A stretch of 64,000 nucleotides of DNA from Clostridiales bacterium 38-18 (GTDB lineage Bacteria; Bacillota; Clostridia; Peptostreptococcales; Acidaminobacteraceae): the NCBI GenBank assembly GCA_001897605.1, contig MKTL01000006.1, positions 363,132-427,131 of the forward strand. Direction: 5' to 3'. The translations under genes were made by a program, and so were the position numbers. The notes beneath the pieces were generated by a model that saw nothing but the letters and a program-made list of their open reading frames with translations, did not search any database and was not told the DNA's origin. Shown here in pieces: positions 1,127-20,772 of the stretch (within the stretch, counting starts at the first letter, position 1; every line of letters begins with the position of its first letter).

Positions 1127-3577
1127 ATGAAAAAGAAATACAACTTTAGAGAAATCGAACCTCAAATGCAGACCATTTGGTCAGAAGAAGCCCTTTACTC
1201 ATTTGACGAAACATCAGAAAAGCCCTTATACAGCATCGACACACCACCGCCAACCGTAAGTGGTAGCCTACACATCGGCCATATCTTTTCCTACACACAG
1301 GCTGAAATCATCGCGCGTTTTAGACGCATGACGGGCTATAACGTTTTTTATCCATTTGGATTTGATGACAATGGACTGCCTACGGAACGACTGGTTGAAA
1401 AATCACTCGGCATCCGTGCAGCGGATCTCTCTAGGACTGAATTTATCCAAAAATGTCTAGAGACGACCCAGTCCTACGAGGCAGAGTTTATGTCGCTCTG
1501 GCAATCGCTTGGTTTTTCCTGTGACTGGTCACTGGCTTACCAGACAATCGGCTCAAAAGCTCAGAAAATCAGCCAAGCCTCTTTTATTGAGCTCTATCAC
1601 AAAGGAAAGGCATATGCTAAAACGGCACCGGTTCTATGGTGTACCGAATGTCAAACCTCAGTTGCACAAGCTGAGATCAACACAGAAACACACGATTCAC
1701 TCTTTCACACGATCCACTTTGAAACCGATCATCCTGATTTCCTAACACTTGAGATCGCAACTACAAGACCTGAGCTTTTAAATGGCTGTATCGCACTCTT
1801 TATTCATCCTGAGGACAAACGCGCCGAAGCTTTAAAGGGACATCATGCCATCGTTCCGCTCTTTGAATATCCCATCCCAATTCTACTAGAAGAAACGGTA
1901 GAAAAAGAGAAGGGCACTGGCATCGTTATGTGTGCAACATATGGTGATCTTACCGATACGCAGTGGCAGGAAAAGCATCAACTGCCATATCGAGATGCCA
2001 TAACTTCAGATGGAAAAATTGCGATGACCACGCCATTCATCGGTGGCTTAACCATTAGAAAAGCACGAAAAGCCATCATTGAACTTTTAAATGACGCAGG
2101 TAAACTCTCAAAGAGTGAGCCTTTAACACATACCATTGGCACCCATGAAAGATGTGGCACGCCAATTGAGTATCTACCTTCTAAGCAGTGGTACATCGAC
2201 ATCTTAACCGATAAGGAACGCTATCTAAAGGCTGCCGATGAGATCAACTGGTATCCGGAGACCATGAAGGGCCGATATCTCCATTGGGTAACCAATCTCA
2301 AGTGGGATTGGTGCATCTCTAGACAGAGGTTTTTCGGTGTACCCATCCCGATATGGTACTGCAAATCATGTGGCGCAACACATGCTGCCGATGAACAGGC
2401 TTTGCCAGTTAACCCCCTAGAAACAAATCCTTCAAAGCCTTGTCACTGTGGGTGTAATGACTTTATCCCTGAAACGGCAGTATTGGACACTTGGGCGACG
2501 TCTTCTATGACGCCTTTTATCAACACGAAACAGCTACCGATGAGCATGCATACGCAAGCGCATGAAATCATAAGAACTTGGGCATTTTATTCCATCGTTA
2601 AAAGCATTTATCATACTGGAGAAATACCTTGGAAGGACCTTATGATCTGTGGGTTCGTACTTGCGAAAAAAGGGGAGAAGATTTCTAAATCAAAGAGCAA
2701 TACCTCACTTGAGCCCTTTGAATTGATACAATCAGAATCTGCTGATGCGCTAAGATACTGGGTTGCTTCTGCAAAGCTCGGGACCGATACTTTCTTTGAT
2801 AGAGACGACCTCGGCAGCGCAAAGCGCACCCTTAACAAACTGTATAATGCAGCGAATTTTTGTCTGATGCACCTTGAAGCAAATGAAGACCTCAATAACC
2901 GAACAGACTTGTCAGATTTACTGCCTCAAGACAATTGGCTGCTCATCAAGCTTGAAAACACCATGCTTGAAGCAAAAGGTGCGCTTGATCAGTACGAGAT
3001 TGGACTGGCAAGACACCATATCGACCGTTTCTTTTGGAGCGATTTCTGTGACGATTATCTTGAGCTGGCTAAAGAGCGCATCTATCAGCCTGAAAAGCAT
3101 GGCAAAAAAGAACAGGCTTCAGCGCTAAAAACCATCTATCATGCGCTCTTAGGCATATTAAAGCTGTATGCACCTTATATACCACATATGACAGAATCGA
3201 TCTACCAATCTTACTTTATACGTTATGAAAAAGAAAAATCGATCCATATTCTGCAGTGGGATAGCGTTGAAACCAGCTGGTTTAAACCCTTAGATTTTGA
3301 AACCAGTATGTTTGAACTCGAATTTGATAATACTTCAACGTCGATTTCAAATCCTGAGCAAATCGCAAAAGCCAAAGAAAATTTTCTCGAATTTGGCGAC
3401 CAAATCAAGCAGGCAATTTCAGAGGCGAGACGCTATAAGTCAGAAAATAATCTTTCGCAAAAAAGTGAGATGCCACTTCTTACGATTATAGGCACTGCGC
3501 CTTATAAACACTGGTTTGAAGCGAGTTTAAACGATTTGTACGCTTGTACTCATGCTTTAAAAATCGAATTATTATAA
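1127..3577 (+). CDS. valS: Valyl-tRNA synthetase
   Basis: Class I aminoacyl-tRNA synthetase that charges tRNA-Val. The HIGH signature is at residues 49-52, inside PPPTVSGSLHIGH, a segment typical of ValS. The KMSKS loop reads KISKS near residues 518-522. A CP1 editing domain lies between them and an anticodon-binding domain follows about residue 580. At 816 residues it is shorter than the usual bacterial enzyme (about 880), and the C-terminus does not look like the typical ValS coiled-coil arm. The FRRMTGYNVFYPFGFDDNGLP style resembles the group of ValS proteins seen in archaea, rickettsiae and some Firmicutes. The start is supported by TAAGGAGGCAACT directly before ATG 1127. Control is by the valine T-box upstream. 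Whether the genome has a second valS cannot be told here. Confidence 0.93.
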   Translation: MKKKYNFREIEPQMQTIWSEEALYSFDETSEKPLYSIDTPPPTVSGSLHIGHIFSYTQAEIIARFRRMTGYNVFYPFGFDDNGLPTERLVEKSLGIRAADLSRTEFIQKCLETTQSYEAEFMSLWQSLGFSCDWSLAYQTIGSKAQKISQASFIELYHKGKAYAKTAPVLWCTECQTSVAQAEINTETHDSLFHTIHFETDHPDFLTLEIATTRPELLNGCIALFIHPEDKRAEALKGHHAIVPLFEYPIPILLEETVEKEKGTGIVMCATYGDLTDTQWQEKHQLPYRDAITSDGKIAMTTPFIGGLTIRKARKAIIELLNDAGKLSKSEPLTHTIGTHERCGTPIEYLPSKQWYIDILTDKERYLKAADEINWYPETMKGRYLHWVTNLKWDWCISRQRFFGVPIPIWYCKSCGATHAADEQALPVNPLETNPSKPCHCGCNDFIPETAVLDTWATSSMTPFINTKQLPMSMHTQAHEIIRTWAFYSIVKSIYHTGEIPWKDLMICGFVLAKKGEKISKSKSNTSLEPFELIQSESADALRYWVASAKLGTDTFFDRDDLGSAKRTLNKLYNAANFCLMHLEANEDLNNRTDLSDLLPQDNWLLIKLENTMLEAKGALDQYEIGLARHHIDRFFWSDFCDDYLELAKERIYQPEKHGKKEQASALKTIYHALLGILKLYAPYIPHMTESIYQSYFIRYEKEKSIHILQWDSVETSWFKPLDFETSMFELEFDNTSTSISNPEQIAKAKENFLEFGDQIKQAISEARRYKSENNLSQKSEMPLLTIIGTAPYKHWFEASLNDLYACTHALKIELL

Positions 3578-3651
3578 AATTGTCACCTTTTAAAAACTGT
3601 GGTACGATAAACGGTGAAAATTCTATCTAGTATTTTGGAGGGATCGGGATT

Positions 3652-5121
3652 ATGAAAAAAACGTTTATCGTACTGATGCTAATCGTCGTCGTACTTGTCG
3701 GCGTGCTTATAAATCAAAGACACATCATGACGCAGGATAAAACGGAGACGGTATTGCCACACACCACGGTTTCACTTGAGGGAACCTCGCTTGAAAACTT
3801 TGTTTTTCCTAAGGATTTCGATCTTAGGAAGTATGAAGGAATCACTTTAAATTTCATCGTTGAAAACAATCTAGGCGCGAACGTTCTCTCACTTGAAACC
3901 GAGGAGTTTACAAAGCTCACAGGAATCAATATCAAGATTAGACCGACAGATTACGATACCTTTATACAAAAAATCAACCTCGATTTCATCTCTAAAGCAG
4001 GGGATTACCAGTTGATTTACTCAGATCCTTATCAGACGCTCAACCGTTTTCATAACGATTTAGAACCACTGGAGAACTTTATTCAGAATCCAGATCTGCC
4101 ATCGCTTCAGGTTGGACTTGATGACTTTTTTGAAAATCAGCTTAAAGTTTGCTCTTATTTTGAAAGCTCAGATCATCTGTACGCGATTCCCTTTGACTCT
4201 ACGACGATGATTCTTTACTATCGCAAAGACGTCTTCAATGACTTTAAAACCCAATTTTATAACAGTATGGGCTATGATTGGACACCTGGTGGTCCTGATT
4301 TTACATGGGACAGATATATAGAAATAGCGAAATGGATCGACACCTATGTGCCCAATGAGATCGTAAAATACGGTAGTGGTCAGATGGCACAAGCGCACAA
4401 CGCCATCTTTTGTGAGTTTTCAAATATCCTAGCCTCTAATGGTGGCGATTACTTTAGAGACGACAACATTAGCACCTATGGCTTATCCAGCTTCTATAAG
4501 ATAGACGTTATGAGCGATGCCTTTATAAAATCGCTTTATGATTATAAAAACGTCATAGCTGCAGCGGCACCGGATAGCGTGAACTGGAACTGGGAAGACT
4601 CTGCCGATGCTTTTAATAAAGGCGAAATCGCTATGATGGTGAATTGGGATGAAAACTATGCCACGCTAAATGCCTCTAATAACTTTAGAGTAAGAAACAA
4701 TGTGGGCACAGCAATCTTACCTTACGGCACTGAAAGAAGCGCCAACATATTTGGTGGCTCAGGCATCGGTATCAACCGATATGCGTCTCAGGAAGAAAAG
4801 GAAGCCGCTTGGTTCTTTATCGCATGGGCAACCTCTAAAGAAATGCAGCTTCGCATCCTAACTGAACCCACTGGTGGCGCACTACCGACGATAAAATCTG
4901 CATACGACGCTATCGATCCTGATTTTAGAGCCTCTCATCCACAAATCGATACGGTTTTAGAAGCATGGCAGCCTGAAAATATATACCTTAGACCGAAGCT
5001 TGCCAACTTTTATCCTATAGAGCAGGCGATTATAGAAGCGCTGCACAATATGGTGACTGAGGATTTAAAGCCAGAGGACGTCGCACTTGAGCTCTATAAA
5101 AAAATCAACGAGGAGAGATGA
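3652..5121 (+). CDS. Membrane-anchored extracellular solute-binding protein (family 1), probable sensor partner
   Basis: A 489-residue protein of the extracellular solute-binding family 1 (sugar-binding, ABC-type) fold. A hydrophobic segment at residues about 4-20 is not followed by a lipobox cysteine, so the protein is probably tethered by an uncleaved N-terminal helix rather than a lipid. The body, about residues 60-450, has the family's features (LIYSDPYQ, FGGSGIGINRYASQ, EKEAAWFFIAWA). The gene is not beside its own permeases. Its stop overlaps the start region of a YesM-type histidine kinase, and the response regulator follows. That order suggests it presents a ligand to the kinase, as XylFII does for LytS/YesN in clostridia. 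This role is inferred; a plain transport role with distant permeases is possible. The start follows TTGGAGGGATCGGGATT. Confidence 0.8.
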   Translation: MKKTFIVLMLIVVVLVGVLINQRHIMTQDKTETVLPHTTVSLEGTSLENFVFPKDFDLRKYEGITLNFIVENNLGANVLSLETEEFTKLTGINIKIRPTDYDTFIQKINLDFISKAGDYQLIYSDPYQTLNRFHNDLEPLENFIQNPDLPSLQVGLDDFFENQLKVCSYFESSDHLYAIPFDSTTMILYYRKDVFNDFKTQFYNSMGYDWTPGGPDFTWDRYIEIAKWIDTYVPNEIVKYGSGQMAQAHNAIFCEFSNILASNGGDYFRDDNISTYGLSSFYKIDVMSDAFIKSLYDYKNVIAAAAPDSVNWNWEDSADAFNKGEIAMMVNWDENYATLNASNNFRVRNNVGTAILPYGTERSANIFGGSGIGINRYASQEEKEAAWFFIAWATSKEMQLRILTEPTGGALPTIKSAYDAIDPDFRASHPQIDTVLEAWQPENIYLRPKLANFYPIEQAIIEALHNMVTEDLKPEDVALELYKKINEER

Positions 5122-5123
5122 CC

Positions 5124-6899
5124 ATGAAACGGCTAAAATTTTATAACCGACTGAGATTTCAGCTTGTGGTCATTGTCATCTTCTTTATCATCATACCGAT
5201 TGTATGGCTATTTATGCTGTTGTCCAACACCATCAAAGATACCTTTAATGAAAAATACAGCACCGTTGCACAGCAGTCCATTGCAGAAACAGGGGATAAA
5301 ATCAATTTCCTGCTAAGCGATATCGTCGACTATACGACATCCATCCTCTCAAACAGAACCTTTTTAGAAATGGTATCCAACACAAAAACACCGGATAGCG
5401 ATATCAATGAGCTGCTTCGTGGCTTTTTAGCTTCAAGAAGTGACATCGATGGGATTTCACTTATTAATGCCAAAAGCACCTATGCCATCGGTACGAATAA
5501 AACCACACCGCTGATTTCCATCCAGCAAATGTCCAGTGAGCATCACGACAGTAAACCGATTTGGCTCTCAACGGTTAAGCAAAACATCAAGATACTATCT
5601 GGGATTTCGACGCGCTATTACTTTTCTGTGGTAAGAAACATCATAGATTTCAATACGCTTGAGTCCTACGGTACGTTTGTGGTCGATATAGAAGAGGTCC
5701 TGCTGGAGCAAGCTTATACGAATTTAGACGCAGATGGTGGCGAGGTGTTTATCATCGACCAAACGGGCACCATCGTTTCACATCCAGACAAATCCTTAAT
5801 AGGTACCTCTATTTCAGAGATGCCTTACTTTGTTGAACTGATGTCTGAGTATGACCAGACTGGAGCCATCTCATATCAAAGCGACAATCAAGAAAAAATC
5901 GCTTTTTTTAGTTTGCTTGAAACCAATGACTGGCGCATCGTTAAGACGATTTCTAAAAATGAGCTCTACTTTGAAGTCGATCAGATTCAGAGGATCTTCT
6001 TTATCGGTGCCGGTATCTATACTGCGCTAATTTTGATGTTCGTCTTAGGATTATCTTTACAATACACAGAACCAATGCTTAAAATTATCAGCGATCTGAA
6101 GCGCGTCGAGCAAGGGGATTTATCCGTTCGGACAAAAGTATCTGCGACGAATGAGATGATGGAGCTTAGCGATAGCATTAACAACATGGTCTCTGAAATG
6201 GAAGTGCTCATTGACAAGCTGGTCATGGAAGAGCGCATGAAACGAGAAGTAGAGCTTGAAGCCCTACACGCACAAATCAACCCACACTTTTTATACAATA
6301 CGCTGAACACCATAAAGTGGATGGCGAAAATACAAGGGGCAAATAGCGTAAGTAACGCCATCGTGGCACTGGTCAAGCTTCTGCGCATCAGCATCAACAT
6401 CAGTAGCGACTTTATTACGCTGAATGAAGAGCTGGAATATATCCAAAACTACGTGGTCATTCAAAAGCTGAGATTTAACGAAGACTTTGAGGTCGAATAT
6501 GACATAGATCCCGAAACGACACCACTTTTGATTCCAAAACTTATCCTTCAACCCATTATTGAAAATAGTATTATCTACGGCATGGAGGCTTCAGAGCATC
6601 TAACGATTGCCTTTGAAAGTCACTTTGAAAATGAAGGGGAGGATTTAATCATCTCAATTAAAGACAATGGTCCAGGCATCTCTGAAGATGTGCTCGGAAA
6701 AATTTTCAAGGATAATACCACTGGAAGTAAGCTAAGTAAAGCGGGGCTAAATAACGTCAATCAAAGGATTCAGCTATTCTGCGGAGAATCATATGGCCTA
6801 GAAGTCTTGACAAGTGAAGGAACTGGCACTACAGTATTGGTTAGATTACCTGTAAAAAGAAAAACCAATGACGAAGAAAATGGAGGTACCGATGTATAA
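5124..6899 (+). CDS. YesM/LytS-type sensor histidine kinase with HAMP domain
   Basis: Membrane histidine kinase. Order: transmembrane helix at about residues 11-33, extracytoplasmic sensor region to about 290, second helix about 295-315, HAMP about 315-370, then a His_kinase domain (PF06580 type) whose phosphoacceptor lies in QINPHFLYNTLN near residue 387, and an HATPase with the N box ILQPIIENSI and the G box DNGPGIS. The ATG at 5118 leaves only 2 nt after the AGGAG at 5111-5115, while the ATG at 5124 leaves 8, so 5124 is preferred (591 residues). The gene overlaps or abuts the upstream binding protein gene and overlaps the regulator gene by 8 nt, so the three are co-translated. It probably phosphorylates the AraC-type regulator encoded next. 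Confidence 0.92.
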   Translation: MKRLKFYNRLRFQLVVIVIFFIIIPIVWLFMLLSNTIKDTFNEKYSTVAQQSIAETGDKINFLLSDIVDYTTSILSNRTFLEMVSNTKTPDSDINELLRGFLASRSDIDGISLINAKSTYAIGTNKTTPLISIQQMSSEHHDSKPIWLSTVKQNIKILSGISTRYYFSVVRNIIDFNTLESYGTFVVDIEEVLLEQAYTNLDADGGEVFIIDQTGTIVSHPDKSLIGTSISEMPYFVELMSEYDQTGAISYQSDNQEKIAFFSLLETNDWRIVKTISKNELYFEVDQIQRIFFIGAGIYTALILMFVLGLSLQYTEPMLKIISDLKRVEQGDLSVRTKVSATNEMMELSDSINNMVSEMEVLIDKLVMEERMKREVELEALHAQINPHFLYNTLNTIKWMAKIQGANSVSNAIVALVKLLRISINISSDFITLNEELEYIQNYVVIQKLRFNEDFEVEYDIDPETTPLLIPKLILQPIIENSIIYGMEASEHLTIAFESHFENEGEDLIISIKDNGPGISEDVLGKIFKDNTTGSKLSKAGLNNVNQRIQLFCGESYGLEVLTSEGTGTTVLVRLPVKRKTNDEENGGTDV

Positions 6900-8478
6900 G
6901 GTCTTAATCGTCGACGATGAAGTCCTCGTGCGTATTGGACTTAAAAACACCATCGATTGGGAAGAAATTGGCTTTACAGTTGTAGGGGAAGCCTCCAACG
7001 GTGAACAGGGCTATGCCCAGTTTTTAAAACTCAATCCCGACGTTGTGATTACCGATATAAAAATGCCGAAGCAAGATGGCCTTTGGCTAACCGATAAGAT
7101 TCACAAGGAAAACAAGGACACGAAAATCCTAGTTCTAACTTGCTATGATGAATTTCAGTTTGCACGAACAGCGCTTAAAAACGGCGCAACTGACTATATG
7201 CTTAAATCAGAAATCGTGGATGATGAGCTCATCGCCTTGATGAAGCGATTCAAGACCACACTAGATGACAGTTCAGCGGGACAATCGGTTATTCCCAATA
7301 AGCATCACAACCAAAATGCGATTAAACGTTCCCTTTTAAACGATCTGATAAAAGTTAAGTTCAATTTTGATGAAAAGTTGTTGTTCCGATTTGAAGAGCA
7401 AAACTTTCAGCTGAGCAATACCAAGTATGCCTTTATCAACCTTGAACTCAAACTTAAGGATCAAAAAAACGCCAAGCAAATTAGTGAGACAACCGTTAAC
7501 CTGATCATAGACCAGCTCAACGAAAAGGGGATTCAATACCTTTTCAATGGCTATATGGACGAGCATCTCTTTTTAATCTCGTCCGCTGACTTGACCCTTT
7601 CCACCATAAGTCGAATGGCGTCGGCTGTTCAAAACGGTGTGGTTCAGTACTTTGATATCGCCATCAACCTCATCTATACCAACGCTTTTACTGAGGCTGA
7701 TGCGCTTTTAAGTCATTATGCACTATTGATGGAAAAATCTGAGATGCTCTTTTATGTCCCAAGTGGTGAAAGCTTAATAGAGAATACCGACCACATCAGA
7801 GTCCTATCTGGAAATACGCATGAACTCAAGCTTAAAACCACTGCTCAGTTCGTCGATAATATCGGTCAAGAAAACCTCGAAGGGATACTTCATACCATCG
7901 ACGAGGTGCTCGATCTGTTCCGACAAAAGTGCTATCCACCGAGGATTGCAAAGGTGTTTATGACTCAGCTTGTGGGTGAGCTTTATAATGTGTTTCAGTA
8001 TCTCTTTGATGCACCTGAGGTCGCTTTTAGCTATAGTGCTTTTCATGAATCCGTTATGAAATCCAAGCATGTGAGCGAGCTTAAAAACATTGTCACCGAC
8101 CTGTTTAAAACGTTGATTAATGAGCTGAGCTATATCCGCGATCATCAATCGAGATACATCATCAAGCAGGCGATTAATTTTGTAGAGCAAAATTACGATC
8201 AAAACATCTCACTTGAGGATGTTGCAAAGGAGCTCAGTTTATCAAAGCAGTACGTCTGCAGCGTCTTTAAGCGTGAAACCGGTCAAAATTTATCGACCTT
8301 TATTAATCAAGTACGTATCGATAAAGCGAAACAATTCCTAGTCAATCCAGCCTATCGCAACAAGGACATCTACGCTATGGTGGGCTACTCCAATCAACAA
8401 TACTTCACTCGCGTCTTTAAAAAAATGACGGGGATGACGACTTCAGAGTGGCAAAAGCACGATCGTAAAGAAAACTAG
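6892..8478 (+). CDS. YesN-type response regulator with AraC DNA-binding domain
   Basis: Two-component regulator of 528 residues. The receiver has the acidic pair D8/D9, the phosphoacceptor D55 in ITDIKMP and a conserved K near 104. A long linker of about 280 residues follows, as in YesN proteins. An AraC-type pair of helix-turn-helix motifs occupies about residues 425-525 (SLEDVAKELSLSKQYVCSVF; GYSNQQYFTRVFKK). The ATG at 6892 is chosen because GGAGG (6882-6886) precedes it by 5 nt; the upstream ATG at 6868 has no site. Three TAGTGCAA direct repeats begin at the stop codon and run toward the ABC transporter operon, so that operon is the likely target. Confidence 0.92.
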   Translation: MYKVLIVDDEVLVRIGLKNTIDWEEIGFTVVGEASNGEQGYAQFLKLNPDVVITDIKMPKQDGLWLTDKIHKENKDTKILVLTCYDEFQFARTALKNGATDYMLKSEIVDDELIALMKRFKTTLDDSSAGQSVIPNKHHNQNAIKRSLLNDLIKVKFNFDEKLLFRFEEQNFQLSNTKYAFINLELKLKDQKNAKQISETTVNLIIDQLNEKGIQYLFNGYMDEHLFLISSADLTLSTISRMASAVQNGVVQYFDIAINLIYTNAFTEADALLSHYALLMEKSEMLFYVPSGESLIENTDHIRVLSGNTHELKLKTTAQFVDNIGQENLEGILHTIDEVLDLFRQKCYPPRIAKVFMTQLVGELYNVFQYLFDAPEVAFSYSAFHESVMKSKHVSELKNIVTDLFKTLINELSYIRDHQSRYIIKQAINFVEQNYDQNISLEDVAKELSLSKQYVCSVFKRETGQNLSTFINQVRIDKAKQFLVNPAYRNKDIYAMVGYSNQQYFTRVFKKMTGMTTSEWQKHDRKEN

Positions 8479-8534
8479 TGCAAAATTTCACTCAGCAGAA
8501 GAATCTAGTGCAAAGTTGCATTAATATAGTGCAA
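8475..8534 (+). promoter_or_regulatory. Three direct repeats TAGTGCAA, candidate operators of the AraC-type regulator
   Basis: TAGTGCAA occurs at 8476-8483, 8506-8513 and 8527-8534, spaced 30 and 21 bp. The first two extend to CTAGTGCAAA. AraC-family proteins commonly bind direct repeats about two helical turns apart. The array ends about 16 bp before a weak promoter-like TTATAA (8550-8555), 17 bp, TAATAT (8573-8578). The assignment to this regulator is inferred from position and spacing. Confidence 0.6.
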
Positions 8535-8594
8535 TGCCGATTAAAATTTTTATAACTTCAACAAAAATTAAATAATATTGTATTAAATCTTGTG

Positions 8595-8630
8595 AATCGA
8601 GGGCATTTTTTAGCCCTCGATTTTGTTTTA
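8595..8630 (+). terminator. Intrinsic terminator in the leader of the sugar ABC operon
   Basis: AATCGAGGGC (8595-8604) pairs with GCCCTCGATT (8613-8622) and is followed by TTTTGTTTTA. Only about 32 nt separate it from the ATP-binding gene, too little for a promoter, so it must be crossed by transcripts entering the transporter genes. It may end the two-component operon transcript, act as an attenuator, or both. Confidence 0.75.
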
Positions 8631-8662
8631 TCCTAAATACATGATTAAGGGAGGCAATACAA

Positions 8663-10162
8663 ATGAGTCAAGACGTCAAATTGAAGGTATTGGGCATCGA
8701 GAAATCCTTTCCTGGGGTTAAGGCATTGGATCAAATCGAGTTTTCAGTACGAAAAGGAACCGTTCATGTATTATGCGGCGAGAATGGTGCAGGAAAGTCC
8801 ACTTTGATGAAGATCATCAACGGAATTTATCAGCCAGATGCTGGTCAAATTATTATAGATGGCGTTGAAGTTAAGATTAAAAATCCAATTCAAGCGAGAC
8901 AGCTTGGTATCGGAATGATTTTTCAAGAACTCAACTACATCCCTGAAATGACCATAGAAGAAAGCTTATTTGTGGGCAACTGGCCACTGGATAAAGCCGG
9001 CAAGGTCGATTGGAAAGAGATTAGAAAAAGAACGCTTGCTTTGCTTAAAGCAGAGAACCTCAATTACAGACCTGATATGAAGCTTAAAGATCTAACTGTA
9101 TCAGATATTCAGATGCTCGAGATCCTTAAAGCCATTTCATATAACTCAGACATCATCATTATGGATGAGCCAACTTCTGCCATTACAAACAAAGAAGTTG
9201 AAGTCCTCTTTAGCAAAATTTTTGAACTCAAGGCAAGAGGTGCAGCGATCATCTATATCAGTCATAAAATGGATGAAATCTTTAGAATTGCTGATGACAT
9301 CACCGTGTTTAGAGATGGTAAGGTTATAGACTCTAAGCCGAAAGCTGAACTGGACATCGAATCGGTAATCGCTTTGATGGTAGGTCGAAAGCTGGGCAAT
9401 GATTTTCCAAAGGTAGAAGTTCCAATTGGCGCACCGATTCTTAAAGTTGAAGCACTTAACAGTAGTAAATTCAAAGATATTAACTTTGAGATTAAAAAAG
9501 GAGAAATCGTTGGTTTTGCAGGTCTTATGGGCGCTGGTAGAACTGAGGTAATGCGGTCAGTATTTGGACTTGATCCTTATCGTTCGGGAAAAATCATTAA
9601 AGATGGTAAAGAAATCAAAATTAAAAATGTTAAAGACAGTATCGATCACAAAATCGTCATGCTGTCTGAGGATAGAAGACGCTATGGTATTTTACCGGTT
9701 AGAAGTGTTAGAGAGAACATCAGTATCACCAATCTAAAACGCTTCATCAAAAAAGGTAAGCTCCATGCAAAAGAAGAGTTTGAAACGGTTAAGTATTACT
9801 GTGACAAGATGAAGGTAAAAACGCCAACTTATGAAACGAACATTTCGAGCTTAAGTGGTGGCAATCAGCAAAAGGTACTTCTTGCAAAATGGCTGATTAC
9901 AGACCCTGAGGTTTTCATTGTAGATGAACCGACAAGAGGCATCGACGTTGGCGCTAAATATGAAATTTATAAACTGATTTCAGATTTGGTTAGCGAAGGT
10001 AAAAGCGTCATTATGGTTTCATCAGAATTACCAGAACTGATTGGTATGTGCGATAGAATCTACGTTATGGCAAAAGGTGAAATCATGGGTGTCCTAGACA
10101 AACCTGAATTTACACAAGAAAATATCATGCGCCTTGCAACAGGCACTACATCAAACAATTAG
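8663..10162 (+). CDS. Sugar ABC transporter ATP-binding protein (RbsA/XylG/MglA family)
   Basis: A 499-residue double ABC ATPase that powers uptake by the permease encoded next. The first half has Walker A GENGAGKST near residue 37, a signature-like stretch LTVSDIQMLEILKA and Walker B IIIMDEP. The second half has a degenerate Walker A GLMGAGRTEV, the signature LSGGNQQKV and Walker B VFIVDEPTRGIDVGAK, typical of this family. The length matches the family. The start follows AAGGGAGGCAATACAA. It is the first gene of a transporter operon whose permease starts 10 bp later. The substrate is probably a pentitol or pentose, judged from the dehydrogenase and xylulokinase downstream rather than from this protein itself. 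Confidence 0.93.
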   Translation: MSQDVKLKVLGIEKSFPGVKALDQIEFSVRKGTVHVLCGENGAGKSTLMKIINGIYQPDAGQIIIDGVEVKIKNPIQARQLGIGMIFQELNYIPEMTIEESLFVGNWPLDKAGKVDWKEIRKRTLALLKAENLNYRPDMKLKDLTVSDIQMLEILKAISYNSDIIIMDEPTSAITNKEVEVLFSKIFELKARGAAIIYISHKMDEIFRIADDITVFRDGKVIDSKPKAELDIESVIALMVGRKLGNDFPKVEVPIGAPILKVEALNSSKFKDINFEIKKGEIVGFAGLMGAGRTEVMRSVFGLDPYRSGKIIKDGKEIKIKNVKDSIDHKIVMLSEDRRRYGILPVRSVRENISITNLKRFIKKGKLHAKEEFETVKYYCDKMKVKTPTYETNISSLSGGNQQKVLLAKWLITDPEVFIVDEPTRGIDVGAKYEIYKLISDLVSEGKSVIMVSSELPELIGMCDRIYVMAKGEIMGVLDKPEFTQENIMRLATGTTSNN

Positions 10163-10172
10163 GAGCTTTATC

Positions 10173-11147
10173 ATGAACAGTTTACTTCAGAAAATAAAAA
10201 AATCTAACTTAATGGCGACGTTCAGCATCTATTTTGTCTTATTATTCTTGTTTTTAATCAGTATGATGGCAAATGAAAACTTTGCAACGATCGGCAACTT
10301 ATCCAACATCTCAAGACAGATTGCAGTTGGAACCATCTTGGCATTTGGGCAAACAATTCTCATTATTAGCGGTATGCTGGATTTATCCTCAGGCTCTGTA
10401 CTTGCTCTAGCGGGTGTCCTTTCAGTAGATGCTTATCTTAAAACAGGCTCACTGATTGTGTCCTTTTTAGTAGGAATTATCGTTGCTGTAATTTGCAACA
10501 TTTTAAATGGTCTTATGGTAACAAAATTTAAAACGCCACCCTTTATCGCAACTCTTGCAATGATGGCGATGGCTAGAGGAGCAGCGCTCCTATATACAAA
10601 CGGACAAAATATCTACCAAATCGGCGATTATGTCATCTTCGGTCAAGGCTCTTGGTTTGGTGTTCCTAACCCAGTTTGGTTCTTAGTGATCACAATGACA
10701 GTGACTTGGTACCTTTTAAAGCACACGGTATTTGGACGCTCTGTCTATGCCATCGGTGGTAACGAGGAAGCGGCAAATGCTTCTGGTATCAACGTCGATC
10801 GCGTTAAGATGAAAGCATATATCATCAACGGTATCTTCGTCGGTCTTGCAGGAATCATCTTCATGTCGAGGGTAAATGGCGGTTTACCAAATGGTGCCAA
10901 CGGCTACGAATTTAAAGCATTAACAGCTGCTGTCATCGGTGGCACATCGTTCTCAGGTGGCGTAGGTACAGCTTCTGGAACACTTGCTGGTGCATTCATC
11001 GTCGGATTCCTAGACAACATCATGGTACTCGTAGGCGTCAATTCTTACCTACAACAAATCGTAAGAGGCGCAATTATTGCTCTTGCCGTTATCTATGATA
11101 TTTATTTTAAAACAACACGTAAGAAGAACAAAGCAGCAAAGGGTTAA
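10173..11147 (+). CDS. Sugar ABC transporter permease (RbsC family)
   Basis: A 324-residue integral membrane protein with about eight to ten hydrophobic helices, the translocation channel of the Rbs-type transporter. Family segments include FGQTILIISGMLDLSSGSV, TPPFIATLAMMAMARG and the cytoplasmic loop FGRSVYAIGGNEEAANASGI, which contacts the ATPase. The ATG at 10173 is preferred over the in-frame ATG at 10134 because AGGAG (10161-10165) precedes it by 7 nt and it removes an unlikely hydrophilic extension inside the upstream gene. It is followed by a 200-bp gap holding a long hairpin, then the binding protein gene. Confidence 0.93.
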   Translation: MNSLLQKIKKSNLMATFSIYFVLLFLFLISMMANENFATIGNLSNISRQIAVGTILAFGQTILIISGMLDLSSGSVLALAGVLSVDAYLKTGSLIVSFLVGIIVAVICNILNGLMVTKFKTPPFIATLAMMAMARGAALLYTNGQNIYQIGDYVIFGQGSWFGVPNPVWFLVITMTVTWYLLKHTVFGRSVYAIGGNEEAANASGINVDRVKMKAYIINGIFVGLAGIIFMSRVNGGLPNGANGYEFKALTAAVIGGTSFSGGVGTASGTLAGAFIVGFLDNIMVLVGVNSYLQQIVRGAIIALAVIYDIYFKTTRKKNKAAKG

Positions 11148-11347: not shown

Positions 11348-12358
11348 ATGAGAAAGGTTTTAGCATTATTATTAGTATTTGTGCTGGCATTGGGGATGCT
11401 AGCAGGCTGTAGCTCAAACACAAGCACGTCTACAACTGAAGCGGCAACAACAGCTGCTGCAGGTGGTGAATCAACAGATAAGGTATTCAGAGTAGCATAC
11501 ATCGCAAGAGCACAAGCAGATTCATTTGCTGCATGGCTTGCAAACGCAGTTATGGAAGAAGCTGACAAGTATGACAACATCACTGTAGATGTATTTGATG
11601 GACAAGCAAACGACGATATAGAAAATGGTCTTATTGAAAATGCAATCACTAACAAATACGATGCAATCATCGTACAACCAAACAATGGTGAAGCTCAAAG
11701 ACCATACGTTGAAAAAGCAGTTGCTGCTGGTATAGTAACAATCACTACAAACGCTAGAATCTCAGGTATCGAAGGCGCATCTTCAGTTGATGCTGATCCA
11801 TACCTCCAAGCAAAAGTTAACGCTGATGCTGCAGTAGAACAAATTCCACAAAACGCTAAAGTTGTCGTATTGTTGGGCCCTCCAGGAAACTTCCATGCTG
11901 ATGCAAGACGTGACAGCTGGCAAAAAGAATTCTTTGACAAAAGACCTGACGTAACAATCGTTGGCGAAGAAATCGCTAACTGGAACAAAGATGAAGCTAT
12001 GAACTACATGGAAACTTGGGTACAAGCTAACGATCAAATCGATGCAATCATCGCTATGAACGATAATATGGCTGCTGGTGCACTTGAAGTTATCAAAGAT
12101 AACGCTAAATTTAGCAACATCTTAGCTTACGGTGTTGACGGTACTGCTGAAGCTTGCTTATTAATCCAAGAAGGTAAATTAACTTCTACAAGCTTACAAT
12201 CTGCTTATGCACTTGCAGAAGGCTTACTTGACACAAGCAACAAATTATTAACTGGACAAGAAACTCAAATCGATATCGATATCGACTGTCCACTTATCAC
12301 TAAAGATAACGTAGCAGAATATATTGAAATGCACAAGAAAGCTGGCGCTATCCAGTAA
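11348..12358 (+). CDS. Sugar ABC transporter substrate-binding lipoprotein (RbsB family)
   Basis: A 336-residue periplasmic-binding-protein type 1 (Peripla_BP_4) lipoprotein that captures the sugar outside the membrane. The signal peptide ends in a clear lipobox LAGC with the lipidated cysteine at residue 21, followed by a serine/threonine/alanine-rich spacer to about residue 42. The family core is visible in IENGLIENAITNKYDAIIVQP and VLLGPPGNFHADARR. Codon use looks more selected than in neighbours (many GCA, GTA and AAC), consistent with high expression. AGGAGGAGAAA precedes ATG 11348. Together with the ATPase and permease it completes a full transporter. A 10-bp hairpin follows the stop. 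Confidence 0.93.
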   Translation: MRKVLALLLVFVLALGMLAGCSSNTSTSTTEAATTAAAGGESTDKVFRVAYIARAQADSFAAWLANAVMEEADKYDNITVDVFDGQANDDIENGLIENAITNKYDAIIVQPNNGEAQRPYVEKAVAAGIVTITTNARISGIEGASSVDADPYLQAKVNADAAVEQIPQNAKVVVLLGPPGNFHADARRDSWQKEFFDKRPDVTIVGEEIANWNKDEAMNYMETWVQANDQIDAIIAMNDNMAAGALEVIKDNAKFSNILAYGVDGTAEACLLIQEGKLTSTSLQSAYALAEGLLDTSNKLLTGQETQIDIDIDCPLITKDNVAEYIEMHKKAGAIQ

Positions 12359-12604: not shown

Positions 12605-13648
12605 ATGAAAAATTTAGCGGCATTTATGTCAGGCACAAACAATATGATTTTCAAAGAGATTCCCGTTCCAGAGCTTGGACCAAAAGAAGTTTTAGTAGAA
12701 GTAGATGTGGTCGGCATCTGTGGTTCAGATGGACATTATTACCAACATGGCAACATCGGTGATTTCGTAGTTGAAGGTGATTTTATCCTCGGTCATGAAA
12801 GTGCAGGCTATGTAGCAGCAGTTGGCAGTGAAGTTAAATCACTTGTTGTGGGTGATAGAGTAGCGCTTGAGCCTGGTGTGGTATGTGGTACTTGTGAGCA
12901 ATGTTTATCAGGGAAATACAATCTTTGTGAGCACGTTGAATTTTTCGCAACTCCGCCATATCATGGCACCTTTGCAAACTATGTGAAGCACCCAGAAAAC
13001 CTTTGCTTTAAATTACCGGAGAACGTATCCAATGCTGAAGGAGCACTTGTTGAGCCACTTGCTGTCGGTCTTCACGCAGCCGCACAAGGTGACGTCAAGC
13101 TTGGTGACACTGTAATCGTATTTGGAGCTGGTTGTATCGGACTTGTTTCTATGCTTGCAAGTAAAGCAAGAGGCGCTTCAAACGTCTATGTAGTGGACAT
13201 CATCGATAAAAGACTTGAGTTTGCTAAAAAATTAGGCGCAACTGAAGTCATCAATGCTAAAAATGAAGATGTCATCGCTAAAATCAATGCGCTTACTGGT
13301 GGCAAAGGGGCACATGTTGTCATCGAAACAGCTGGCTCACCAATCACAGTCGCTCAAACTGCAAGTGTCGTTAGAAAAGCAGGAACAGTTGTTTTAGTTG
13401 GTATGACTGTAAAATCAGAAACTAGCTATGACTTTATGAAATTAATGGGCAAAGAGGGTACGCTTAAAACCATCTTTAGATATAGAAATCTTTATCCAGT
13501 TGCGATCAATGCCATCAGCAGTGGCACAATCGATGTTAAAAGCATCGTTACACATGAATTTGAGTTTGAAAATATCAAGGAAGCGTTTGACTTCGTCGCT
13601 GCAAATCCAACTGACGTCGTAAAAGCAGTAGTAAAAATTAAGAAATAA
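12605..13648 (+). CDS. Zinc-dependent polyol dehydrogenase (xylitol/sorbitol dehydrogenase family)
   Basis: A 347-residue medium-chain dehydrogenase that oxidises a polyol to a ketose with NAD(P). The catalytic zinc ligands are the cysteine in GICGSDGHYY (about residue 39) and the GHE motif (about 64). The structural zinc site is CGTCEQC plus the cysteine in YNLCEH. The Rossmann nucleotide fold is VFGAGCIGLVSML at about 175-187, followed by VVDI, whose aspartate favours NAD. The next gene encodes xylulokinase and no xylose isomerase is seen, so xylitol or D-arabitol to D-xylulose is the most likely reaction. Sorbitol to fructose or a threonine-type substrate cannot be excluded. AGGAGGGCAAT precedes ATG 12605. 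Confidence 0.88.
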   Translation: MKNLAAFMSGTNNMIFKEIPVPELGPKEVLVEVDVVGICGSDGHYYQHGNIGDFVVEGDFILGHESAGYVAAVGSEVKSLVVGDRVALEPGVVCGTCEQCLSGKYNLCEHVEFFATPPYHGTFANYVKHPENLCFKLPENVSNAEGALVEPLAVGLHAAAQGDVKLGDTVIVFGAGCIGLVSMLASKARGASNVYVVDIIDKRLEFAKKLGATEVINAKNEDVIAKINALTGGKGAHVVIETAGSPITVAQTASVVRKAGTVVLVGMTVKSETSYDFMKLMGKEGTLKTIFRYRNLYPVAINAISSGTIDVKSIVTHEFEFENIKEAFDFVAANPTDVVKAVVKIKK

Positions 13649-13873: not shown

Positions 13874-15346
13874 ATGTATTTTATAGGCGTTGACTTAGGC
13901 ACATCATCGGTTAAGATACTGGTAATGGATCAAGAGGGCCAAATTATCAGTACGGTTACTAAGGATTATCCACTTTTCTTTCCAAAGGCACTTTGGTCAG
14001 AGCAAAATCCTCAGGACTGGCTTGAGCAATCATTATTGGGCATCAAAGAGGCACTAAACGGACTCGATGCAAATGCTGTAGGTGGAATCGGTTACAGCGG
14101 ACAAATGCACGGGTTAGTGATTCTAGACGAACACGATAATGTCATCCGTCCTGCTATTTTATGGAACGATCAAAGAAGCGTAAAAGAAACTAACTATTTA
14201 AATGAGGAAATAGGTATAGAGAAGCTGACTGAACTTACTGGAAACATAGCGTTCCCTGGGTTCACAGCGCCAAAACTCCTTTGGGTTAAGGAAAATGAAC
14301 CTGAGAATTTTAAAAAGATAAAAAAGGTGATGCTGCCAAAGGACTACTTAGCTTATAAAATGACAGGCGCTTTTGCAACTGATTTTGCAGATGCATCTGG
14401 CGCACTTTACCTTGATGTTGCAAATAAAAAATGGTCACAAGGGATGCTGGACATCATCGGCATCGAAGAAAGCGTTCTTCCAAAACTCTATGAGTCTTAT
14501 GAAAATATAGGTTCTCTATCAAAAGAAGTCTCTGACTATTTAGGCATCCATCATGAGATAGCAGTCGCTATTGGTAGTGGGGATCAAGCTTGCGCCGCTG
14601 TGGGTGGTGGTGTTGTCAGTCCAGGATGTTGTTCGATTTCCCTCGGCACCTCTGGAGTGGTATTCGTTCACAGCGATACGTTTATCAAAGATCCAAATAA
14701 TGGCCTCCACGCCTTTGCCCACGCCAATGGTGCGTATCATTTAATGGGCTGCATGCTTTCAGCTGCAGGCTCATTAAAATGGTGGGTTGAAGAGATACTA
14801 AAATCAAATGACTACAATCGTTTGATGGATGCTGCTAAGGAAGCACCACTGGACAATGGCCTTTATTTCTTACCCTATCTTATGGGCGAAAGAAGTCCAC
14901 ACAATGATCCAAATGCAAGAGGTGTCTTCTGGGGTTTAAATCTTTCCCACGGACAAGGCGATATGACGCGCGCAGTAATTGAAGGGGTTTCATTTGGTCT
15001 TAGAGATTCATTTGAAATCGTCAAATCACTGGGTCAAGAAATGACAGAAATCAGAATCAATGGTGGCGGCTCTAAAAATGAATTTTGGTGTCAAACCATT
15101 GCCAATATTCTTGATACAAAGGTTGTTAAGCTTGAAACAGATGCTGGCCCAGCCTATGGCGCGGCTATCCTTGCAGCTGTCAGCGCAGGTGCATACCCAT
15201 CAGTAAAGGTCGCTTGTGATCAGCTTATAAAAACGACAGAATCCTATCAACCAATCCCACAACTGGTTGATGCATATAATAGAAAGTACAACTCCTTCTC
15301 AAAGCTTTACCCAGCTCTAAAAGCACTATTCCCAGAAATAGAATAG
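13874..15346 (+). CDS. xylB: Xylulokinase
   Basis: A 490-residue FGGY-family kinase that phosphorylates D-xylulose to D-xylulose 5-phosphate, feeding the pentose phosphate pathway. The N-terminal phosphate loop is GVDLGTSSVKILVMD (residues about 5-19), the substrate region is GYSGQMHGLV near 80, and the C-terminal FGGY region includes LMGERSPHNDPNARG and RINGGGSKNEFWCQ. The length is normal. GAGGT (about 13863) precedes ATG 13874. It follows the polyol dehydrogenase, so the pair would turn a pentitol into xylulose 5-phosphate. A strong terminator follows the stop. Confidence 0.93.
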   Translation: MYFIGVDLGTSSVKILVMDQEGQIISTVTKDYPLFFPKALWSEQNPQDWLEQSLLGIKEALNGLDANAVGGIGYSGQMHGLVILDEHDNVIRPAILWNDQRSVKETNYLNEEIGIEKLTELTGNIAFPGFTAPKLLWVKENEPENFKKIKKVMLPKDYLAYKMTGAFATDFADASGALYLDVANKKWSQGMLDIIGIEESVLPKLYESYENIGSLSKEVSDYLGIHHEIAVAIGSGDQACAAVGGGVVSPGCCSISLGTSGVVFVHSDTFIKDPNNGLHAFAHANGAYHLMGCMLSAAGSLKWWVEEILKSNDYNRLMDAAKEAPLDNGLYFLPYLMGERSPHNDPNARGVFWGLNLSHGQGDMTRAVIEGVSFGLRDSFEIVKSLGQEMTEIRINGGGSKNEFWCQTIANILDTKVVKLETDAGPAYGAAILAAVSAGAYPSVKVACDQLIKTTESYQPIPQLVDAYNRKYNSFSKLYPALKALFPEIE

Positions 15347-18265: not shown

Positions 18266-19855
18266 TTATCTAAAGCTTGTATTAAGCGCTTTGAGTAGTG
18301 TGCGAACATCGTAGTGATGTGGGGTTACTGGATTGATTTTTCTGGAGCTTTCAAGAAGTGTGTAGACTGCAATTCTTGCTGCTCTGATTGAAAACTCTTC
18401 TGTAAACACCATATCCTCAGGAATTTCTACAAACTGGCTGATCATCGCAAAGTTAGTTGAACCTGCTGGAACCACCTCTGGACGATCTTTAATTGCCCTT
18501 GGTTGGAACATGGAGATGATATATGGCATCATACATGGAATGACGTTAATTACTGACCCCATGATCTCATCCATTTCTTCTTCCATGTGTAGATGGTGGA
18601 GGAGCTCAATTAAGATTTCTTCGCCTGTGCAATCCTTCATTGGTTTTTTTACATAGTCGCCGAGTTTGTCTGTATAAAGTCCGTAGCCCCAGAAAATGGT
18701 AACGTCTTCAGGTTGATTTTTAAAGTGTGGCTGTTTGGCAACGACGATTGACATTAGCCAGCTTGATTCTTTAAAGGTCATTAACGCGCCACTACCTGGT
18801 TTATTTCTAGCGTATTTTTCAATCTTTTTAAGTAGATCGTTGCCTTTCATTGTTACAGTAAAGGATTCCCAATTGGTCTCTGCTGGATTGCCAAAGAAAG
18901 ATTCTGGATTACCAAGACCTTGTTTTTTAGCTGCGATATTTCTCCAAAAAGTGCCTGAAAGTGGTGTTTCTGGAACAAATGGTGCTGGTTCTTTAAAGCT
19001 ACCAAGTGTTGCGTTATCTGTCATACTACCGTTAGTTGCAATACAGATATCATTTTCACCTAGTTTAATAACGCCTTCTTTTTCAGCAGCTTTGTATTGG
19101 ATTCCCGTTACGGTAATGCCGTCATGATCTGCGAATTCAAGGTCAGTTACTGTGCATTTTAAGCTGAAATCCACACCTTTTTCTTCAAGGTAAACCTTCA
19201 TAGGGTGAATGATGGAATCGTATTGGTTATAAGGGGTTCTAGTAACGCCTTCTAATGTCTGAATACGTGAAAATTCAAAGACCATACGTTGCATGTAGCG
19301 TTTAAATTCGATTAGGCTTGACCATTTTTGAAAGGCAAATGTGGTCTGCCACATATACCAAAAGTTTGTTTCAAAGAAGTGTGGTGTTTTAGCGAACCAA
19401 TCTGATATTTTTAGCATTTGTATCTTTTCTTCAGGTGCGATCATGAGTTTACCTAGCGCCATACGGTCCGCCATATCAAATCCCATAGACATAACATCTA
19501 AGATTTCGCCGTTTTTATCGATTAAGCGCGCATTGGCATGTGTTGGATTTTCATGGTCAAATGCTAAAATTTCTTCGCATAGACTCATTTCTGGTCGGTC
19601 AAGGGAAGGGATGGTACTGAGCAATTCCCATGTGTTTTCATAGGTTTCTTCGTTCAGCATACGTCCGCCACGACAGATAAAACCGTTGACAGCATCGCCT
19701 GCGCCATCGTTGCTACCACCTAATATCGGTAGGCTTTCTAAGATGTGAATTTGTTCGCCTTTAATTCCAAAATCTCTGATTAAGTAAGTTGCGCCTGCAA
19801 GTGATGCCAAACCACCGCCGACGAAGTAAACGTTCTCTAAAGCTTCTTTTTTCAT
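18266..19855 (-). CDS. ohyA: Oleate hydratase (MCRA family FAD protein)
   Basis: Adds water across the double bond of unsaturated fatty acids to give 10-hydroxy acids, an FAD-bound detoxification or adaptation reaction. The N-terminal dinucleotide fold is VYFVGGGLASLAGATYLIRDFG-like (residues about 9-27), followed by LESLPILGGSNDGAG and a glycine-rich FICRGGRMLNEETYE segment typical of the family. At 529 residues it is shorter than the best known enzymes (about 590), mostly at the C-terminus. The ATG at 19855 is chosen because AAGGAG lies just upstream; the ATG at 19912 would add a very basic 19-residue leader without a ribosome site. The gene follows a TetR-type gene in the same direction, with a long dyad between them. 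Confidence 0.93.
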   Translation of the reverse strand: MKKEALENVYFVGGGLASLAGATYLIRDFGIKGEQIHILESLPILGGSNDGAGDAVNGFICRGGRMLNEETYENTWELLSTIPSLDRPEMSLCEEILAFDHENPTHANARLIDKNGEILDVMSMGFDMADRMALGKLMIAPEEKIQMLKISDWFAKTPHFFETNFWYMWQTTFAFQKWSSLIEFKRYMQRMVFEFSRIQTLEGVTRTPYNQYDSIIHPMKVYLEEKGVDFSLKCTVTDLEFADHDGITVTGIQYKAAEKEGVIKLGENDICIATNGSMTDNATLGSFKEPAPFVPETPLSGTFWRNIAAKKQGLGNPESFFGNPAETNWESFTVTMKGNDLLKKIEKYARNKPGSGALMTFKESSWLMSIVVAKQPHFKNQPEDVTIFWGYGLYTDKLGDYVKKPMKDCTGEEILIELLHHLHMEEEMDEIMGSVINVIPCMMPYIISMFQPRAIKDRPEVVPAGSTNFAMISQFVEIPEDMVFTEEFSIRAARIAVYTLLESSRKINPVTPHHYDVRTLLKALNTSFR

Positions 19856-19953
19856 GGTTTTCTCCTTATTCTTATCTGATTTGCGACATGATTTTTTTCG
19901 TTTATATCGCAATTTCTAATAATAAGTTACATCAGTTAAAACCGCATAAAAAT

Positions 19954-20004
19954 AGACAAACGAGGTGAAATGTCTAATGTTATGACATTTTCACGTGTTT
20001 GTCT
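19954..20004 (-). promoter_or_regulatory. 51-bp dyad between the TetR-type gene and ohyA
   Basis: Outer arms AGACAAAC (19954-19961) and GTTTGTCT (19997-20004) enclose inner arms GTGAAATGTC (19965-19974) and GACATTTTCAC (19984-19994), which match apart from one extra A. It lies about 32 bp after the tetR stop and 99 bp before the ohyA start. On the minus strand it is followed by ATTTTTATG, so it may terminate the tetR message. Its size and symmetry also fit a TetR operator. The two roles are not exclusive. Confidence 0.65.
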
Positions 20005-20035
20005 AAATCTAAGGAACGTACTTCCATATATTTTT

Positions 20036-20593
20036 TTAAAGCTTTGTATACTTTTCTATTGCGCGACTGATTTCGCCGTTAATCAGCTTGTCCAGTTTAT
20101 CGATAATGACTGCTGGCGCCTCCTTTGCACCTGATTTGAGCCATTCTAGCATCAGTGCGACGAAGCCGTAGGTGTAAAACTTGGCGATAAAGGACTTGTC
20201 AGACTCAGAAATCTGAAAGCCTACGGCAACTTCTTCTACCACCCCAATTAAAAGGTCATAGGTGAGGCTATAAAGAAACTTTTCTAGGTGATCACGTCCT
20301 AGTGAATTCACTGTACAAAGGCAGAAATCGCGATTGGCTTCTACATACTGAAATATTTTAAGAAAGCCAAGCTGCCAAGTCTCATAGGTTTTGAAGGCAT
20401 CGATGGACCCAAGTGCCTCAGATTTATAGATCCAGCCAAGCAGCTCGTAGATGTCTTGAAAATGGTAATAAAAGGTTTGACGATTAACGCCACACTCCGT
20501 GACGAGCTCCTTAACTGTAATATGCTCAAGGGATTTCTTTGTCATCAAATTTTTTAGGGTTATGCCCAATTCACGCTTTGTTCTATTTTGCAT
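20036..20593 (-). CDS. TetR/AcrR-family transcriptional regulator
   Basis: A 185-residue one-component repressor. The N-terminal helix-turn-helix is at about residues 22-45 (ITVKELVTECGVNRQTFYYHFQ), within the 50-residue TetR_N domain. The remainder is a helical ligand-binding and dimerisation domain resembling the DhaS-like subgroup. The ATG at 20593 is preferred over a GTG at 20602 because GGAG lies 8 nt before it. It is upstream of and parallel to ohyA, so it probably senses a fatty acid or a membrane stress and controls the hydratase. The ligand is not evident from the sequence. Confidence 0.88.
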   Translation of the reverse strand: MQNRTKRELGITLKNLMTKKSLEHITVKELVTECGVNRQTFYYHFQDIYELLGWIYKSEALGSIDAFKTYETWQLGFLKIFQYVEANRDFCLCTVNSLGRDHLEKFLYSLTYDLLIGVVEEVAVGFQISESDKSFIAKFYTYGFVALMLEWLKSGAKEAPAVIIDKLDKLINGEISRAIEKYTKL

Positions 20594-20772
20594 TTTATCC
20601 ACTCCAAATCATAGTTACATAAGTATTTTAGCAGATTTCTTCACACTTTTTAATTCACAAAACCATAATTTTTATATATAATGAAATAACGAAGGGATTT
20701 CATCGCTCTTATTACAATTATATATAAAGATTCGTTTTAATATATCTATCAATTCATTTGTAGGAGGACAAC

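Follow-up and report, generated by a model that had tools for sequence, protein, structure and literature searches.

How might a clostridial cell recognize a polyol outside its membrane, and what does a solute-binding protein do when its gene adjoins a histidine kinase gene and no permease gene? These questions are raised by a locus of Clostridiales bacterium 38-18, a Fusibacter-like bacterium whose genome amounts to 3.4 Mb in 30 contigs (assembly GCA_001897605.1). The analysis covers 64,000 nucleotides of its contig MKTL01000006.1 (positions 363,132 to 427,131, forward strand), and this whole stretch is called the window below. Three overlapping genes at 3652-8478 encode a family 1 solute-binding protein, a YesM-type histidine kinase and a YesN-type response regulator; an RbsACB-type importer, a polyol dehydrogenase and a xylulokinase are encoded downstream (Table 1). 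In the best supported reading, which we regard as likely, this triad is a three-component sensor that detects an external polyol, with a pentitol (for example xylitol or D-arabitol) as the likeliest candidate, and drives the RbsACB importer and the enzymes.

Conservation of the triad and of its gene order

The first-pass annotation of this locus had described three overlapping or abutting genes, the first encoding a family 1 binding protein with neither a lipobox nor permeases of its own, and this description stands. The open reading frames (ORFs) extend from 3652 to 5121, from 5118 to 6899 and from 6868 to 8478. The stop codon of the binding-protein gene (5119-5121) overlaps the start of the kinase gene (5118), whose own stop codon (6897-6899) falls inside the first codons of the regulator. 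The likely start of the latter is 6892, where its relatives begin with the methionine of MYKVLIVDDE. The order triad, RbsA, RbsC, RbsB is kept in all 15 loci that are long enough (the window, L040-L045, L050, L052-L055, L096, L099 and L100), and the fragments L046 and L097 agree with it as far as their sequence reaches; in L050, a metagenome contig, the RbsB gene is split over two frames. A polyol dehydrogenase similar to that of the window follows in 14 of the 15 (the exception being L052; the sequence of L054 ends inside this gene) and a xylulokinase-like gene in 10, L052, L053, L055 and L096 having none and L054 ending too early. These orthologous loci are not mutually independent. In a search of 391 genomes of the class, with at most six kinase candidates scored per genome, orthologues of the kinase sensor region (E <1e-40) were found in six genomes, the own one included, and adjoin the binding-protein gene each time; the orthologues of the binding protein at the same threshold occur in the identical six genomes. 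The next kinase match is at 5e-14.

Sensor domain of the kinase and binding protein

The kinase carries the Pfam domains His_kinase and HATPase_c, and its match to dCache_1 (39.2 bits) lies below the cut-off of 45. Its AlphaFold model has a mean predicted local distance difference test score (pLDDT) of 75.8, the sensor region lying mostly at 80-92 and falling to 60 around residue 135, and displays a long N-terminal helix followed by two alpha/beta lobes. This region matches dCache sensor domains with Z scores of 17 to 20, among them the outer domain of the histidine kinase NagS (8w7p; Z 19.1, root-mean-square deviation (rmsd) 2.9, 227 residues aligned), which its sequence profile also finds at 2e-6. 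Profile and model together identify the sensor of this kinase as a domain of the dCache type with a relationship to NagS; the kinase core matches GanS of Geobacillus stearothermophilus. No XylFII-LytS structure is among the matches listed for the kinase fold, a listing that is no test of absence.

The triad could also be a plain two-component system in which the dCache domain senses the polyol directly, the binding protein only raising sensitivity or gathering the ligand. Indeed, dCache domains often bind small ligands, the kinase model matches many ligand-bound dCache structures and the CuaSR system of Ruminiclostridium cellulolyticum still perceived cellobiose when deprived of its binding protein CuaD (PMC10384115). 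However, in all 15 relatives that have both, the binding protein is closer to that of the window than the dCache domain is (45% versus 27% in L055, for example), as would be expected if the binding protein holds the recognition site. Furthermore, the search of 391 genomes revealed no orthologue of the kinase sensor (E <1e-40) without the binding protein among the kinase candidates scored. We therefore consider direct sensing by the kinase unlikely and favor recognition by the binding protein.

This binding protein belongs to family 1 (SBP_bac_1, PF01547, 9.5e-32); PF01547 and PF13416 are the only Pfam families to reach E 0.001, so that it falls outside the RbsB/XylF class PF13407. Its closest named relative found is from Fusibacter bizertensis (80% identity). 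Residues 4-20 form a hydrophobic stretch (mean Kyte-Doolittle value 3.38), and no cysteine was seen in or near it by direct reading of the sequence. By the same kind of reading, with start codons inferred, the N-terminal anchor is devoid of cysteine in L040-L045, L053 and L099, whereas L050, L055, L096 and L097 have a lipobox-like end (LTSC, LTGC or TVGC; a simple pattern search missed that of L055); the anchor type of L052, L054 and L100 is ambiguous. L099 and L050 belong to one genus (genomes G176 and, for L050, probably G225), yet their anchors differ. Membrane tethering thus seems to be kept while the anchor chemistry changes, and lipid and helix anchors appear exchangeable inside one orthologous group.

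In the genome-wide Pfam listing, the PF00528 permease nearest to the binding-protein gene is about 21 kb off. Among the six PF01547 matches listed in the genome, this protein alone has no PF00528 permease nearby, the five others (one below the curated cut-off) having such permeases within about 3 kb; the list is incomplete, since it lacks an apparent CUT1-type binding protein encoded in the xylose locus (L060). The genome holds 33 PF00528 matches elsewhere, and the protein could in principle serve a distant CUT1-type permease, its adjacency to the kinase being incidental. This is hardly tenable, since the two genes adjoin in every locus where both are visible, the five other listed proteins have their own permeases close by and the triad is succeeded by an importer that has a binding protein of its own.

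Candidate target site of the regulator

The regulator combines a Response_reg domain with an AraC helix-turn-helix (HTH) domain. Its middle part (about residues 140-420, window 7285-8127) diverges far faster than the receiver and HTH parts, with 11-26% identity outside the GTDB family of the host. In known cases such as araI of Escherichia coli, AraC-type DNA-binding domains use direct repeats two turns apart. The gap between the regulator gene and rbsA is 184 bases, and the octamer TAGTGCAA occurs ahead of rbsA at 8476 (8476-8483), 8506 and 8527. Taken alone, this octamer is not significant in the window (six found for 2.89 expected, 13 of 100 shuffles reaching six). In a test that uses no reference motif, carried out on 11 of the 13 regions (L045 and L046 were omitted as near copies of L044 and L043), direct repeats at a spacing of 21 stand out among spacings 14-44 with z = 7.2, the next being 2.9 (60 shuffles, which kept composition in 30-base blocks only). 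On the same regions, a two-block motif search reached 265.5 at spacing 21 versus 149-168 at 19, 20, 22, 23, 31 and 32, with the consensus CCTTAATATAGTGCA.

For 12 of 13 loci, a leave-one-out scan for this pair over whole loci and both strands had its top site at the junction of the regulator gene and rbsA. Training of the matrix left out L041 and L054, which had been poorly placed, as well as the locus being scanned (and also L043 for L046 and L044 for L045). The window's site reaches 23.0, versus 4.6 for the next one in 64 kb; the top site of L041, L043, L046 and L055 starts within the final codons of the regulator gene. All three complete loci fetched later have their top site at this junction too, as scored with a matrix trained on the earlier set without L041 and L054, in which some loci are related to the new ones: L096 (14.5; next -2.8, likewise in the gap), L099 (19.8; next 10.2, likewise in the gap) and L100 (27.5, with an overlapping pair at 20.7; next 7.6, elsewhere). 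L098, apparently the same contig as L050, was not counted, and L097, whose sequence ends ahead of the regulator, was not scorable. Altogether, the site holds the same position in 15 of the 16 loci scored, and 8498-8536 is probably the target site of the regulator. At positions 8051-8110 of L100, three consecutive half-sites follow each other in 21-bp steps ahead of rbsA.

Since the site is conserved, rbsA is a strong candidate target. The first-pass annotation had proposed control of the importer and of the dehydrogenase and xylulokinase genes; the site ahead of rbsA is in keeping with the former, and the latter would follow from gene order, no listed match preceding these genes. Likewise, no site stands out ahead of the binding-protein gene or of the dehydrogenase gene in the window among the six best matches listed per locus; L044 has a weak match (0.5) ahead of its dehydrogenase gene. 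That the triad is a real sensor with a main target other than the following importer is very improbable: the terminator-like repeat described below parts it from rbsA, and the genome search used a single motif form, taken from the window's own site, so that diverged sites were possibly missed, but with up to three mismatches allowed this pattern has a single exact match (the window's own) and one other, with three mismatches and inside an ORF, and the site keeps its place in nearly all loci scored.

A second pair of repeats may lie further downstream. The best second pair 30-110 bases beyond the first was found at 72, 72, 72, 62, 71, 69, 69, 71, 48, 61, 60, 72, 71 and 81 bases in 14 loci (L046 and L054 were omitted), hence at about 61, 71 or 81 bases, on the same face of the DNA helix, in 13 of them. 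It scores above zero in 7 of the 14 and -9.8 in the window, and the pattern was spotted post hoc in related loci. For L100, the distance is taken from the first overlapping pair (8051); from the better pair (8072), the same second pair is 60 bases away. In the window, the weak second pair is overlapped by an inverted repeat at 8594-8623 (AATCGAGGGC/GCCCTCGATT with the tail TTGTTTTAT), which could be a terminator, an attenuator or the site of a second regulator. In the interval 3500-8800, promoter-like and terminator-like sites are no commoner than in shuffles (14 versus 13.2 and 4 versus 3.5, respectively), and what lends weight to this repeat is solely its retention in relatives: L040, L041, L043 and L046, four loci from the same GTDB family, have it almost unaltered, and in L042 it is degenerate.

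Importer, enzymes and probable ligand

The xylulokinase reaches 587.2 bits for TIGR01312, well above the equivalog cut-off of 380.25. For the polyol dehydrogenase, no NCBIfam equivalog reaches its cut-off; its nearest PDB relative is 5vm2, named only alcohol dehydrogenase, followed by sorbitol dehydrogenase, ketose reductase and arabinitol and xylitol dehydrogenases. Xylitol or D-arabitol fits these relatives of the dehydrogenase combined with a xylulokinase. The nearest PDB relatives of the RbsB protein of the importer are 4rsm, 5hko and 4rs3, which we take to be polyol complexes. The profile of the sensor binding protein matches best 5iai, presumably a ribitol complex, then two maltose/trehalose binders and, fourth, 4rya, named sorbitol-binding; it also finds NagB1 (7ehp) at 1.2e-6. 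Most PDB matches of this protein are oligosaccharide binders, so the case for a polyol comes chiefly from the enzymes.

Xylose had been listed beside xylitol and arabitol as an inducer. This is unlikely and was set aside, because the genome holds a separate xylose locus (L060) with an apparent repressor and transporter of its own: it comprises a xylose isomerase, a second xylulokinase (46.8% identity), an apparent ROK-type repressor and PF00528 permeases. Instead of xylose, a pentitol is the probable inducer. In L052, genes at 18728-20931 that encode a DhaK-like protein, DhaL and an RpiB/EryI-like isomerase replace the dehydrogenase and the xylulokinase behind the same sensor and importer. This gene set points to a tetritol or ketotetrose route, and relatives may therefore sense other polyols.

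Table 1. Positions of the genes and sites in the window
Feature	Position	Strand	Basis
Sensor binding protein, family 1 (PF01547), 489 aa, hydrophobic N-terminal anchor without lipobox	3652..5121	+	ORF, Pfam, PDB sequence relatives
YesM-type histidine kinase, 593 aa, extracytoplasmic dCache domain at about residues 40-285	5118..6899	+	ORF, Pfam, model
YesN-type response regulator (receiver and AraC HTH)	6892..8478	+	ORF opens at 6868 (536 aa)
Probable operator, two direct half-sites (8498-8515, 8519-8536), 21 bp apart	8498..8536	+	Repeat and motif scans
Second, weak pair with 21-bp spacing, offset 72 bp downstream	8570..8608	+	Paired scan (window score -9.8)
Inverted repeat ending in a T-rich tail; resembles a terminator or belongs to the rbsA promoter region	8594..8623	+	Sequence, relatives
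RbsA-type ATPase; importer probably regulated	8663..10162	+	ORF, Pfam, NCBIfam
RbsC-type permease (PF02653), start read at 10173	10173..11147	+	ORF, Pfam, NCBIfam
RbsB-type transport binding protein (PF13407), N-terminus reads as lipoprotein	11348..12358	+	ORF, Pfam, PDB profile
Zinc polyol dehydrogenase	12605..13648	+	Pfam, PDB relatives
Xylulokinase	13874..15346	+	TIGR01312

Proposed mechanism and its weighing

From these features, we propose the following course of events. The family 1 protein would be anchored on the outside of the membrane by its N-terminal helix, bind the polyol there and act on the dCache domain of the adjoining kinase. The kinase would then phosphorylate the YesN-type regulator, which would bind the 21-bp-spaced direct repeats ahead of rbsA and switch on the RbsACB importer. 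The dehydrogenase and the xylulokinase, presumably co-induced through read-through or a shared transcript, would turn the pentitol into xylulose 5-phosphate.

Several observations weigh against this scheme. L054 has no site at the regulator-rbsA junction in the leave-one-out scan, a terminator-like repeat sits between the site and rbsA, and no match precedes the dehydrogenase or xylulokinase gene of the window among those listed. Weak matches precede the binding-protein gene in L040 (6.8) and in L052 (2.6, other strand), so that autoregulation is possible. The system is patchy: in a search of 99 near relatives, E <1e-100 was reached in seven genomes, the own one included, and one genome of the same genus gave no match. 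The downstream enzymes also differ between loci, given the xylulokinase count of 10 in 15 and the other genes of L052. As for the receptor, its profile finds proteins that bind maltose, trehalose or other oligosaccharides as second and third PDB matches and as most of the further ones, and its AlphaFold model is poor (mean pLDDT 64.1, from 10 sequences); this model resembles family 1 binding proteins with an rmsd of about 8-11 Å in one comparison and about 15-17 Å in another, values so high that no conclusion on a pocket was drawn from it. Finally, the dCache domain could itself bind a small molecule.

Beyond the three-component polyol sensor as such, we lean, with some reserve, towards a more specific proposal: a CUT1-class protein acting as a pure receptor, tethered by a helix or, in other relatives, by a lipid, would direct expression of a CUT2-class importer for the same polyol through two same-face pairs of 21-bp repeats. 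If this is true, sensing and transport of one ligand are split between two classes of binding proteins. From this mixture of classes, it seems that the sensor does not have to be a copy of the transporter's binding protein, which widens the search space for such receptors. To our knowledge, many YesM-type kinases have no known signal; here, a likely receptor, its kinase, a DNA site and a target operon can be read together, making a testable polyol switch.

Comparison with known systems

The triad has the make-up of binding-protein-dependent three-component systems of the CuaDSR or NagB1 type: its first gene lies beside those of a kinase and a regulator without a permease gene of its own, the binding protein belongs to family 1 and the sensor is of the dCache type. 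The first-pass annotation had cited clostridial XylFII for comparison and proposed a related sensor built on a family 1 protein. The triad is indeed a conserved unit, but CuaD and NagB1 are nearer than XylFII and, since CuaD has been tested and NagB1 proposed, a family 1 sensor is not new.

The XylFII-LytS-YesN system of Clostridium beijerinckii shares with the window a sensor binding protein, a kinase and a regulator for an importer that has its own binding protein (PMC10384115, PMC13068155, PMC9601137). Its ligand is xylose and its sensor protein is classed among the glucose/ribose-type monosaccharide-binding proteins (PMC9601137), in contrast to the PF01547 sensor of the window. In the Parageobacillus arabinose locus, a PF13407 protein beside YesM-YesN was suggested as a possible kinase partner (PMC13068155), and xua of R. 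cellulolyticum is a plain two-component system adjoining an importer (PMC9675976).

Two other loci of the own genome have related layouts. In L036 (6919-17415, contig C1), an XylFII-like triad comprises a PF13407 binding protein without N-terminal cysteine, a YesM-type kinase without a Pfam sensor domain and a YesN-type regulator. It is followed by a second PF13407 binding protein, an apparent LacI-type regulator and then PF13407, RbsA-like and RbsC-like genes, so that PF13407 would serve both sensing and transport there; the next ORF reads as a GH42 beta-galactosidase. In L037 (6834-13038, contig C5), a YesM-type kinase and a regulator are followed by a PF01547 binding protein with its own PF00528 permeases.

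NagB1 of Paenibacillus FPU-7, for which a signaling role was proposed, lies as in the window beside a two-component system and not beside permeases (PMC8233162). NagS, presumed from the names to be the kinase beside NagB1, has a sensor domain related to that of the window in both sequence and fold. The differences are its ligand, a chitin disaccharide, and its transport protein NagB2, a close, highly homologous relative of NagB1 (PMC8233162). The nearest experimentally tested system is CuaDSR of R. cellulolyticum (PMC10384115). There, CuaD bound the outer part of CuaS in a two-hybrid assay with or without cellobiose, and no affinity for cellobiose was seen with this outer part by itself. CuaDSR shares with the window a family 1 sensor binding protein, a YesN/AraC regulator and a separate transport binding protein, and the outer part of CuaS was modelled in a similar form, as a long helix carrying two five-stranded sheets. 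Unlike the window's protein, with its anchor devoid of cysteine, CuaD is a predicted lipoprotein, and its ligand is a disaccharide.

In the open-licence literature, no report of a mixed-class pair of sensor and transport binding proteins was found, nor anything relevant on Fusibacter xylitol dehydrogenase, pentitol-binding proteins, YesM/YesN in connection with three-component systems or xylitol, or three-component polyol sensing, which is weak evidence of absence. In both precedents, as far as these papers describe them, the sensor and transport binding proteins share one class: CuaA, the transport protein, resembles family 1 as CuaD does (PMC10384115), and NagB2 goes with NagB1 (PMC8233162). 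By contrast, Pfam assigns PF01547 to sensing and PF13407 to transport in the window, and similarity gives the same assignment in the 14 other complete loci. On this classification, the use of different classes for the sensing and the transport binding protein is what sets the window apart from the Cua and Nag systems.

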